From the NCBI RefSeq assembly GCF_025698545.1, contig NC_068571.1:50315733-50379732 (forward strand): a stretch of DNA of 64,000 bases, given 5' to 3'. This stretch comes from Gossypium raimondii. Lineage: Eukaryota; Streptophyta; Magnoliopsida; Malvales; Malvaceae. Shown piece after piece: positions 1 to 6,108 of the stretch (the first letter of the stretch is position 1; every line of letters begins with the position of its first letter). Made by a program: the position numbers and the translations under genes. Below the pieces are notes generated by a model. The model searched no databases. It saw nothing but the letters and a program-made list of their open reading frames with translations, and was not told the origin of the DNA.

Positions 1-597
1 CAGAGTTACGGAGTATTACCGAACTTTACGAATTAAATACGAACATTTCTCAACTTTTGTTACACATATTAAGAATCAATTATATAGCACACATATTGTC
101 CCTTAGAAGGACCTTCGAGGCCCAATATTCACCTTAGAAGTGAATTGGGACTAAATTGGGTACTTAGGAAATTTTCTCAAAATTTCAAAAATTTTCTTAG
201 AAGCAGGGGACACATGCCCGTGTCTCTGCCCGCGTGGACGAAAATAGGCCATTTTAAGGCCACTTTTCTCACCCATTTTGACATTAACCTGTACTCAACA
301 TTCACATACACCAATATATCCCAACCAAACAATCAATACAAGCTAAAAAATGTTCTCAACATGACATAACATCACAAATATTTCATTTATTTATACCTAC
401 CTATTTAACTCATTTCATTGATTTACCAAATTCTACTACTAATTACATGCATACAAACATTTAATATTCACAACCACAATTCAAATTATTTCATTGCCAA
501 ACCAACCCTATACATGCCATATAAACCAAAATTTACATTGCAAAAACTACCGGAATAAACTAGATAATGTAGCTTGATGTGTTGATCCGATCTTCCA
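1..597. mobile_element. LTR of a TGTAAC-type retrotransposon, first part (cut by window edge)
   Basis: This stretch aligns by eye with the LTR that starts at 61552: both share a GTTACGGAG-TATTACCGAA-like opening, a TATTGTCCCTTAGA / GAGGCC block, and a GCAGGGGACACA-GCCCGTGT block. By that alignment about 35 bases of the LTR lie before the window. The LTR is interrupted after 597 by another element and resumes at 3649. No gag or pol is seen here. Short ORFs such as 145-369 lie inside the LTR and are not genes. Family membership is by eye only. Confidence 0.75.
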
Positions 598-1166
598 TGT
601 AACACCCCTTACCCGTATCCAACACCGGAATAGGGTACGAGGCATTACCAGAACACATACACTTGTAAACGTGTTTAACCGAGTTATAAAATTCCATCTA
701 AAAAAAACTTTCAAAACTATTAGCATGCTTCTATAACTTTTCACAATATATCCTCAAAATATTATGATCATAATAATTAGGGCCTACGAGACCCGATACA
801 TACTCATGCAATTCAATGCTTCATTTCCATTTCATTCAATTTGCAATTTCTCATGCTCACAATTTAAATCATATCACTAGCAATTTCCATTTAATTCACG
901 TACAATTCAATGTCATTAAGTTCAACACTAATACGTATTTACCATTTGACTCAACGTTTATCGATTATACCATTCATTAACACATTTATGAAATTCTTAA
1001 TTTTGCAATGAAAATATCACTTTAGCTTAAATAACAACATCATCCTGGTATAAATGCACTACCACTTATCCATTTTCTATAATTCTTTTGAGTCAATTTG
1101 TCACTTACCATCCTTAATCAAATTAGGGAACGGTTACGGAAAATTGAGTTCTTCATTTTCACTTTG

Positions 1167-1183
1167 CCATAGTATAACTATGG
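1167..1183. repeat. Single perfect 7+3+7 hairpin
   Basis: CCATAGT-ATA-ACTATGG forms a perfect 7-bp stem with a 3-base loop, followed by TCTTA. It has the same architecture as each unit of the 33-bp array at 3941-4196 in the other LTR, and it lies just before the 45-bp hairpin repeats. Confidence 0.85.
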
Positions 1184-1196
1184 TCTTACGTATGAT

Positions 1197-1402
1197 CACT
1201 TATCACTTGTCCCTGATCAGATAAGTTTAGCTAGGCTACCACTTATCACTTTGTCACTTGATCAGATAAGTGTAGCTAGGCTACCACTTATCACTTTGTC
1301 ACTTGATCAGATAAGTGTAGCTAAAGCTACCACTTATCACTTTGTCTCTTGATCAGATAAGTATAGCTAAAGCTACCACTTATCACTTTGTCACTTGATC
1401 AG
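1197..1402. repeat. 45-46 bp minisatellite, about 4 units, each unit a hairpin
   Basis: GATCAGATAAG recurs at 1215, 1260, 1305 and 1351, and a partial fifth copy starts at 1397. The period is 45, 45, 46 and 46. Each unit contains GATAAGTG and, about 12 bases on, CACTTATC, with TAGC...GCTA (or TAGCT...AGCTA) inside. Each unit can therefore fold into a stem of about 12-13 bp with one bulged base. The loop differs between units (TAG in early units, AA in late ones) while the stem is kept. Confidence 0.9.
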
Positions 1403-3648
1403 AAATACTCAAATCCGCGCGTTCCGCTCAATTTGATCATTTATTCGGTTTTCACATTTTTATTTTATTCTCATTTCAACAATAAATATATTTCATCATA
1501 CATTATATAATTCATGAAATTAACATTTAATCATTAAATTTCAGCCATATAAACTTACTATTTCATTACCTTTCCACACCCGTTTCCTATGCATATCACA
1601 AGCATATTTTCATTCAAGCTCTTATTATTTCAATGCATAACTTTTAGGTTTAACGTGGCATAATTCAGCCACAACTTAGCCAAAGCCTAAGCATGTATGC
1701 CCAATATCTTAGCCAAATAAACATATAGCATAAGCATTATAAGCATGGATGAACACAATATTTATTTTAAACTTACTAACATGTGTTAATTCAGTACCCA
1801 TTCATGACATCACTTCATGCCAAATCATATGCTAAATATACCATACACAAGTACTATGAAACTTTATTTTTCCACCTGAGCTCAAACCATGACCAATACT
1901 GCACAAAATATATGCATCATTTCTATTTCATCGTTTATCAATTATAATCGAGCGTATTACCAATTATACACAAATCATTCATATATTTTCCAATTTTTCC
2001 TCCTCCTCCTCTCCATTCCACATCCTTAATGTATATAACACATTTAAACAACATTATCGATACTATCACTATTTTCCTGTATATAAATTCAAGCTGTCCG
2101 TCTGAGTCAGAGTCACTAATTTATTTATATCTCGAGCTACAGAGCTCCAAATTAAGATCCATTAATTTTCCCTAAAACTAGAATCACATATATTCTTACC
2201 ATAAAATTTTCAGAATTTTTGGTTCAGCCAATAAGTACAGTTTATTCTTTAAAGTTTCCCCTGTTTCACTGTTTGACAATTCCGACCCCTCTTCACTAAA
2301 AATTAATTATCTCATTATACAGAATTAGAATAATATTCTAGTTTGTTTCTTTTGAAAATAAACTCATTCAAGATTATAAACATATAAATTTTATCCCATA
2401 TTTATTTTTTTACAATTTTTAATGATTTTCTAAAGTCAGAACAGGGGAGCTCGAAATCATTCTGACCTTGTCTCATAAAATTAATTATATTTCATGATTT
2501 CCAATTCCATTGCTTACACCATTTCTTCTATGAGAAACTAGACTCAATAAGCTTTAATTTCATATCTATTCATCTTCTAATTAAATTCCCACAATTTTTG
2601 GTGATTTTTCAAAGTTAGACCACTGCTGCTGCCCAAAACAGTTTTAGTATAAAATATTGATTACCAATTTGATCCTAAACTTTTATACATGACAATTTCG
2701 TCCCATGGCTCGGAAAATGAAATTATTGCAATATAATCCTTGATTCAAGACTAATAATTCTCATACATATCAATAACAGCCCATGGATTCCATGAAATTT
2801 CAGAAGTTATCCACAATTTCAATACTTTTCAATTTAATCCCTAAAATATGTTTTCATCCAAAATTATTTAATAAAACACCTTTAAACATCCATTAACATC
2901 TCAATTTCATCATAAAATAACAAAAATCATATGAAATTATCATTGGTATCTTCCAAAACTTTCAACAAAATGAGAAACTAGTAGAATACAAAGTTGGACC
3001 TAATTGTAAAAGTCTAAAAATATAAAAATTTCAAGGAAAAAGCAGAATTAAACTTACTTGAAGCCAAAATATGGAATACCAGCTCCAAACCCTCTTCCAT
3101 GGCTGTTTCCCACCGAAATTTCAAGAAGAAATGGTCTTGAAATCCTTAAAATAAAATTTGGCCACATAAATTTTTTATAATTCCAATTTTGTCCTTAAAT
3201 ACATAAAAATCTTAGATTTTTTTAACGGTATGCCATCTCAGCCACTTAACTTGGTCCATTTGCTCTTTTAGCCCTTCCTTATTTAATTGTTAAACTATTT
3301 AATCACTTTAGCAAGTTTTGCATCTTTTCAATTCAATCCTTTTTAATTAATTAACTACCGAAGCATTAAAATTTTCTGACGAAACTTTAACACTACCATA
3401 TTGACACTTTGTAAATATTTATAAAAATATTTACGGCTCGGTTTATAACATCAAGGTCTCGATACCTCTTTTCCTCAATTTCTTGACTTAATAAATTTTA
3501 TAAAACACAAATTACTAATTCAAAAATCTCTTAAAAATCATATTTGGCTCGTAATTATTAATAATGAAATTTACGAGCTTATTTTCTGAATTTGATGATC
3601 TCGTACCACTATTTTCGACATTTTTGAAAATCGGGCTATTACATTCCA

Positions 3649-5530
3649 GCTACACGTTAATCTACAAGAACATTAAACAACACGAGTAAGCTTAATGAAG
3701 CTTAGCAAGTTCAATAGGTTAAACATTGATATTACCGAACTTAATATAATATAATAAATTAAATTGTAAATAAATCATACATCTTTCCCCATCAGATACA
3801 ATATAATCAATAAACACACTTCCTTCAGATCAATATCAATAATAATCTATAAATCTTTCAATTCATTCACATAAGTCTCTTACCATTTCTTACTGAATCG
3901 AAGAACAACTTACGGATATGAGTACATCGTTCTTTTTGTGCCATAGTCCAACTATGGTCTTATAAATGCATTGCCATGGCCCTACCACGATCTTACATTT
4001 TTAGTGCCATAACCCAGTTATGGTCTTATAATCAGAATGTCATAGCCCAACTATGGTCTTACACATGTATTTATACTGCCATGGTCTAACCATGGTCTTA
4101 TGTTAAAAGTGTCATAACCTAGTTATGGTCTTTTCATTAAAATGCCATAGCCTAGCTATGGTCTTACATTTAAACATTGTCATGGTCCGACCATGGTCTT
4201 ATCCGTCAATTCATTCTTGCCACAGAACGATCGTACTCAATCCTGCGTTCTACTCGTTTTAAACATTCGATTCAATTTTCATACTTTTACAATAATCTTA
4301 ATTTCAACAACAAAATATGAATAAATATATTATATCATTCCTAAATTAACAAATAATAATGAAATTTTAACCATATGAACTTACCTGGGTTGTATTGTAA
4401 AATTGGTAATAGTTTAGAGACTACTCGGCTAATTTCCCTTTTTCTCGTTGATCTACGAGCTCTTAATCTAGAATGTAAAATTTTTTATTCATTAGCATAT
4501 ATTTCAATTTCAATCCACTTCACAATTTATACCCCTCAAATTTTGAAATTGCACAATTACTAGAACTTTTATTATTTTTACAACTTAGTCCCTCACCAAT
4601 TAACTTATCAAATGAGATATTTTTTCTCAATTAACACTTTATATAAATATTATAAGCTATTACACAGCCCTCAATAAATAGGCTTTAATACCAAACCCTA
4701 AGATTTTAATCTTTTCACAATTTGGTCCTAAAATCAATTTCTATTGAAATTACTTGATAAAATCATCATATAACAAAATTAAAACTTAAAATCCATGTTT
4801 TATCATAAACATTCAGTACTCATCAATGATAAATTTCAAAATTACCCATAGAATAAAAACTAATGAATTAGATAGTTGGACCTAATTGTAAAAGTCTCAA
4901 AAACATAAAAAAATTAAAAGAAAAGCAATAATTAAACTTACATGATGCAAAAAAATGAAAAACCAGCTTAGAGGACCTTCAATGGCGTTTTTGGACTGAA
5001 AATTAGAAGAAGAATAGCCTAGAAAAGTTTAGCATTCAATTTATTTAAGTTAATTTCACAAAATTTACAATTTTGTCCTTAAATCACCTAATTCCAAGAT
5101 TTTTTTCTGCTTATGCCGCCTCAGCCATTCCTTGGGTGTCTAATTTCCCTTTTAGTCCTCCCTTATTTGCCATTTATGCTATTTAATCACTTTAGTAAGT
5201 TTTGCACCTTTTTCAATTTAGTCCTTTTTAATTAATTAACTATCGAAACGATAAAATTTTCTAACGAAACTTTAATACTACCTTAATGAAACTCCGTAAA
5301 TATTTATAAAAATATTTATGGCCCGATTTATAAAATCGAGGTCTCGATACCCCATTTTAAAAACTAATTAACCTAATAATTTCTTTTAAACTCAAATCAG
5401 TATTTCACAAATCTTTCTAAAATCACATTTAACTCGTAAATACTAGATAATAAAATTTATGAGCTTACTCATCGGAATTGGTGACTTCAAATCACCGTTT
5501 CCATTACCACTGAAAGTTTAGGCTGTTACA
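3649..5530. mobile_element. LTR of a TGTAAC-type retrotransposon, second part
   Basis: This continues the LTR broken at 597 and ends GTTTAGGCTGTTACA. The final part (about 5100-5530) is clearly related to 3200-3643 of the inserted solo LTR: both have TTTAATCACTTTAG-AAGTTTTGCA, TTAATTAATTAACTA, and TAAATATTTATAAAAATATTTA, followed by AAGGTCTCGATACC-like sequence. The total length of this LTR would be roughly 2.5 kb. It contains the hairpin array at 3941-4196. The 62-codon ORF at 4375-4563 is not considered a gene. Confidence 0.75.
3941..4196. repeat. 33-bp tandem array of eight 7+3+7 hairpins with compensatory stem changes
   Basis: Eight 17-base inverted repeats start at 3941, 3974, 4007, 4040, 4079, 4112, 4145 and 4180, so the spacing is 33, 33, 33, 39, 33, 33 and 35. 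The general form is YCATRNY-CYR-RNYATGG followed by TCTTA. The stems differ between units, yet both arms change together: CCATAGT/ACTATGG, CCATAAC/GTTATGG, CCATGGT/ACCATGG and CCATAGC/GCTATGG. Units 6 and 8 have one T-G wobble, unit 4 has one mismatch besides its T-G pair, and unit 2 is decayed. The array lies within the LTR. Confidence 0.92.
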
Positions 5531-6108
5531 TTGATTATGATTCAAATATATATATTTAAAAAAAATAAATACATCACTTTCTTTTCATATTAGATAAATA
5601 TAATTATTTATGTATGCAATATATAAACATAAAATGATATTATATCGATAATTATTTCAATAATTTGTGAAAATAGAATCAAATCAAAATTTCATGTGCA
5701 AAATTGCACAAAATCATAATTTATGTATAGTATTGCATATTTGACCAAAATTTATATATAATTTTAAGACTTATTCCTATAATGAAAAAATTTTAAATTA
5801 AAAATTAGGGTTTTATTTATTTATTTTGGTATTCTAGATTTTAATATTATTTATTAAAATAGGTTTAGTGAGAGATTTTCCAAAGTACATTTTACATTTT
5901 GGAGGAGTAACTCGACATTCGTGGGTGTTAGTATAAGTTTTTTTATTATTGAATTTATTTGGGATCAATGAGGAGATAAAGAAAGAGAATGTTATTTGAC
6001 GAGTTTGACTTAAGAACTCGACACTCATGGGTGTAAAATTCTACTTTATATATTGATTCCCATTAATGTTCGATTAACATTTTGACTATTTTTTTATTTC
6101 TTTGTTCC

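Follow-up and report, generated by a model that had tools for sequence, protein, structure and literature searches.

The question raised by this locus is what has been kept in a row of short palindromes inside an LTR: the capacity of their arms to pair, a binding site for a protein, or nothing more than a duplicated unit. The row lies in the window, the whole stretch of 64,000 nucleotides of Gossypium raimondii that was analysed (assembly of 751 Mb in 281 contigs); positions below are those of the window, and all features are assigned to the minus strand, which is the sense strand of the LTR. The array consists of eight units of 7+3+7 bases with a period of 33, starting at 3941, 3974, 4007, 4040, 4079, 4112, 4145 and 4180, and the spacings between them are 33, 33, 33, 39, 33, 33 and 35. 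A sequence-only reading of the window had described eight 17-base inverted repeats with one gap of 39 and one of 35. Both gaps were confirmed, and positions, period and geometry hold, but only four of the eight units are perfect. These are unit 1 (3941..3957, AGT/ACT, by pattern search and pair count), unit 3 (4007..4023, AAC/GTT), unit 5 (4079..4095, GGT/ACC) and unit 7 (4145..4161, AGC/GCT). Unit 6 (4112..4128, AAC/GTT) and unit 8 (4180..4196, GGT/ACC) each have one outer T/G. The stem of unit 2 (3974..3990) is broken, with 4 of 7 Watson-Crick pairs, and unit 4 (4040..4056) has 5 of 7; the commonest form of each is perfect (GGC/GCC among 30 copies for unit 2, AGC/GCT for unit 4). The same reading had the two arms changing together from unit to unit in front of a fixed TCTTA tail. 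Inner triplets are indeed complementary in six units, but not in the other two, and the tail is kept except after unit 6, where it is TCTTT.

A pattern search of the window with up to 3 mismatches returned nine matches, the eight units of the array and one at 1167, whereas 0.29 are expected from shuffled sequence. Between 3941 and 4196 there are six repeats with at least 6 of 7 pairs; the maximum in 1,000 dinucleotide shuffles was 4 and the mean 0.55. The rest of the AT-rich window holds perfect and near-perfect 7+3+7 repeats at 0.08 and 0.94 per 256 bases, respectively. Since such repeats are present elsewhere in the window, it is the periodic array and not any single repeat that goes beyond chance. 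An Rfam search of positions 500-6000 gave two matches only (E 0.37 and 0.93), both far under the gathering scores, so that no described RNA family was recognised there. No match to the plasmid collection was found.

The array sits within an LTR of about 2.5 kb, LTR B, whose first part in the sense direction (3644..5530) holds it. The second part occupies 1..597 and runs on past the left edge of the window, ending 33 bases outside it next to a primer-binding-site-like stretch (locus L031). LTR B is interrupted by a related LTR, LTR A (598..3643), with TTCCA duplicated at 593-597 and 3644-3648; LTR A and LTR B share 75% identity across 652 bases. With TTCCA on either side, 598-3643 has the appearance of a solo LTR. 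The ends are of the TG..CA type with a 5-base target-site duplication, and identical 5-base flanks were found in 6 of the 11 copies showing both ends. The primer-binding-site-like stretch adjoins the window copy, L015 and L026, the latter two out of 21 copies in which that end was found, and in L017 and L029 a purine tract adjoins the opposite end of the LTR. We take these stretches to be the primer-binding site and the polypurine tract. Together with the identical flanks, they are the basis for assigning the sense strand and the LTR nature of the sequence, in agreement with the sequence-only reading, which had placed the array inside an LTR. A neighbouring frame in an interrupted coding stretch encodes the retroviral-type protease domain RVP_2 (E 6.5e-35), which presumably marks a Ty3/gypsy type. 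No further protein domain, such as a reverse transcriptase or integrase, was detected in two more frames or in nine frames of L031. Judged by RVP_2, the sole domain found, the host element of the array is probably a Ty3/gypsy-type LTR retrotransposon.

The copies of LTR B show how the arms came to match and how the match is lost. Family B was represented by 30 copies from 41 places, the window copy (L001) among them; of 1,074 candidates only the best 40 were scored, so that these are the nearest copies. In each of the eight units the commonest exact form, present in 9 to 18 of the 30 copies, is a perfect 7+3+7 palindrome. The inner triplets of these forms in units 1 to 8 are AGT, GGC, AAC, AGC, GGT, AAC, AGC and GGT. 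Units 3-5 and 6-8 thus repeat one series, and the array contains five unit types instead of eight independent stems, but all five triplets are matched by their partners. C>T and G>A make up most departures from the commonest forms. Changes affect 175 of 1,680 pair cells; both sides are changed in 4, all compensatory, against 4.57 expected if the arms change independently. The test of covariation across genomic copies that the sequence-only reading had proposed therefore shows no excess among the 30 copies, and covariation was dropped as evidence of structure. Stems changed at a rate of 0.053, loops at 0.051, spacers at 0.031 and flanks at 0.050.

The negative result is explained by the decay of integrated copies, which is mostly C>T and G>A. 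Because the integrated copies show no pairing constraint, their matched arms go back to the replicating lineage; it is well supported that the match was held there, and it was lost after insertion. Paired change, as originally claimed, thus stands for the replicating lineage, in the five matched triplets and in the types of a second family described below, and not for single copies, which drift arm by arm. Formally the arms do vary independently among copies, the outcome that the sequence-only reading had set against its own proposal, but this variation arose after insertion. In L001-L030 (3941-4196), T replaces a C within GCCA, usually the base at the outer end of the left arm, in 65 of 330 cells, and a C within ACCA in 12 of 390. 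The outer C>T changes, seen as T/G pairs on the plus strand, were rejected as a guide to the strand: they occur in various units and copies and fall in the high-rate GCCA context.

Matched arms are found well beyond family B. A genome search with fixed outer CAT/ATG and free inner bases returned 921 unit pairs and a reversed control none; twelve stretches from the places listed for this pattern contain further arrays. A ninth unit type, with matched arms and a CTC or CTT loop, occurs in L054, L055 and L058. A second large family, G, is characterised by GTC/GAC units, with 5,268 exact units in the genome and none in the control; this search pattern is itself palindromic, and the count is silent on mismatched units. 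Among 92 G units, 65 were GTC/GAC, 5 ATC/GAT and 1 GTT/AAC, 13 had unmatched inner bases, and 8 were out of register with a loop one base shorter; the 92 come from 19 stretches picked off the exact GTC/GAC list and are biased toward perfect units. Over all picked units, with no choice by arm, the inner triplets are in fact complementary in 170 of 259 units at family B loci (mean 39 and maximum 58 when permuted) and in 126 of 179 at other loci (mean 42 and maximum 56 when permuted), the copies being related and the trials accordingly not independent. By simple arithmetic that ignores relatedness, random matching would leave the six commonest types all self-matching once in 720.

The related LTR A carries, at the place corresponding to the array of LTR B, one CCAT-type unit (1167..1183, CCATAGT ATA ACTATGG) followed by another array capable of forming hairpins (1197..1403). 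This second array has a period of 46 and arms GATAAGTG/CACTTATC together with TAGC/GCTA. Counted over the window and eight other loci, 45 units have intact outer arms; inner arms of 5-6 bases are kept in 38 of these, with a varying loop. The copy number of the 46-base unit (L046-L053 and window 1197-1403) varies widely between elements. In L062 and L073, GTC-type units adjoin a right flank of the B type, so that arrays seem to have been exchanged between LTR families. Pairs of GTC-type arrays on the same strand, about 6-8 kb apart, are present on contig C1 among the listed places (for example 18889614/18895549 and 14001736/14009174). Their spacing suggests that they are the two LTRs of one element.

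If pairing is what was kept, the form of the fold has to be considered. The array folds better than 100 shuffles on both strands (z -6.1 for sense and -7.5 for antisense), and because the antisense strand folds as well as the sense strand, folding leaves the strand undecided. Judged by the fold ensembles, a unit closes into its own hairpin with a probability of at least 0.5 in 20 of 80 cases in B and 7 of 48 in G; the single CCAT unit of A does so in 6 of 8. The remaining B and G units mostly pair elsewhere, unit with unit, which self-complementary repeats are able to do. Independent local hairpins are therefore not the favoured equilibrium fold in these predictions. Hairpins could also form while the transcript is being made, or two molecules could pair with each other.

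The sequences flanking the arrays are complementary to each other in A and G, less strongly so in B, and they may form a stem that closes the array. In the window the proposed arms of this stem are 3920..3933, which precedes the array on the plus strand, and 4224..4238, which follows it, with moderate support from family B. When the two flanks were treated as separate strands, none of 60 shuffles paired as well as the real sequences at any of the 8 A loci or the 5 G loci. Pairing in B was weak (mean z -1.26 over 30 loci), and nothing above shuffles was found in families C (3 loci) and D (5 loci); a closing stem as a general feature was thus ruled out. Flanks combined across families (A with G and G with A) gave background energies only. 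In a set of 17 G loci, which leaves out L073 and L083 with their foreign or cut left flank, at most 3 of 100 shuffles were as low as the real flanks in 15; the copies L074 and L084 failed, with 15 and 28 of 100 shuffles as low. Ensemble-expected pairs between the flanks numbered 34.0 in A (8 loci), 34.7 in G (the first 10 without L073) and 24.9 in B (the first 10 of 30), compared with 10.4, 12.9 and 12.9 for shuffled flanks. They exceeded all 12 controls at 8 of 8, 10 of 10 and 4 of 10 loci, respectively, and the window's own copy was not above all 12. A and B have homologous though not identical stems; the stem of G resembles neither. In the alignment of G, for which the structure was derived from one aligned sequence, 81% of stem cells are paired, compared with 28-40% in slid controls; both sides are changed in 2 cells only. 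G arrays (L066-L084) have an extra palindrome, CAAATGTCATGACATTTG or near forms of it, between the array and the right arm of the closing stem.

The reading that we favour, at just under an even chance, takes the array as a domain that acts in cis within a Ty3/gypsy-type LTR retrotransposon and is kept because its sequences pair, probably as RNA. Two things speak for it: the inner arms differ in a matched fashion, and in two or three families the array is closed by its flanks. The thing kept would be pairing in a single strand, and the RNA of the element is the most likely site of it. The RNA of a full element includes the copied LTR sequence. The closing stem would gather the array into one domain of this RNA, and the palindromic units would pair within or between RNA molecules. 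The likeliest roles, all putative, would be to join genomic RNAs as dimers, to help in packaging them, or to fold an untranslated end of the transcript. Lack of covariation among copies, the small number of units forming their own hairpin, the weak stem of B and its absence in C and D, the failure of L074 and L084, and the mere two both-side changes in the stem of G all count against the favoured reading.

The main competitor, unlikely but deserving attention, is that a dimeric host factor binds the units as dyad-symmetric DNA sites, and that the LTR thereby holds a tandem enhancer of the sort suggested for the palindromic repeated motifs of Sirevirus LTRs. CCAT, ATGG and TCTTA are constant across families whose flanks otherwise differ, which such sites would explain, and OPIE-2 has a similar array with even the 7+3+7 geometry (PMC2829016). 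A protein site, however, needs no matching at the three inner arm positions, which vary by unit type and yet match their partners, and the complementary flanks are left unexplained. We consider it rather less probable still that quasipalindrome correction, in which reverse transcription switches template from one arm to the other, has kept the arms identical with no selection for function. This process would act in the replicating lineage alone, as observed, and homogenisation of inverted-repeat arms is described for yeast and other systems (PMC8604942, PMC3820800). Against this, template switching is said to invert spacers, and a TGG or AGG loop occurs in none of the 438 picked units, which include 21 with loop TTT that are probably false picks; nor does it easily account for flanks that are complementary at a distance of some 300-600 bases.

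Two further readings are very improbable. The array could be an ordinary minisatellite whose palindromic units spread by duplication with unconstrained arms. The single series repeated by units 3-5 and 6-8, the variation in unit copy number between elements and the free drift in integrated copies would all follow, but not the matching of each of the five B inner triplets in its commonest form, nor the further matched types in G. Equally remote is the view that the main importance of the palindromes is to give rise to small RNAs of the host or to be targeted by them. Stems of 7 bases are short for a dicer substrate, and small RNAs are a cost to the element and would leave the keeping of matched arms unexplained. 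In its favour, palindrome regions of maize Sireviruses are small-RNA hotspots (PMC5311732, PMC10760457).

A proposal broader than the favoured reading is that LTRs of plant Ty3/gypsy elements carry a modular fold, made of a family-specific closing stem and exchangeable self-complementary units, whose sequence turns over and whose pairing is kept because the replicating element needs it, for example for RNA dimerisation or packaging. This generalisation is possible but doubtful. Palindrome arrays in plant LTRs have so far been read as cis-regulatory boxes or small-RNA hotspots, and the matched arm differences, the other array in a related LTR and the complementary flanks point to pairing itself as the thing kept. 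The question is testable, since one genome holds many copies and the dead ones are a built-in neutral control.

No description of this array was found in the open-licence literature, which is weak evidence of absence. The nearest arrays on record are those of Sirevirus LTRs. The LTRs of Sireviruses, which are Ty1/copia elements, contain palindromic repeated motifs in eight or more copies; nearly all have a CGG-CCG core, and they form CpG islands; the motif of Tnd-1 is without the core (PMC2829016). A position upstream of the TATA box is a further trait of the Sirevirus motifs. The cotton array shares with them the presence of at least eight short palindromes in an LTR, and the published table in the same source gives motifs of OPIE-2 and PREM-2 that also read as 17 bases of 7+3+7. 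Its core is different: CCAT..ATGG, followed by TCTTA, with inner variants that match between the arms; a CGG..CCG core is absent from the commonest forms of the units. The cotton element also has an RVP_2 protease and, in some families, complementary flanks around the array. Arm homogenisation by template switching (PMC8604942) would keep arms matched without selection but also inverts spacers. Palindrome regions of maize Sirevirus LTRs are enriched in small RNAs, as PMC5311732 and PMC10760457 report, citing Bousios et al. 2016. Those regions are likewise clusters of palindromes in the LTR with strong predicted structure, but they belong to copia elements of maize.
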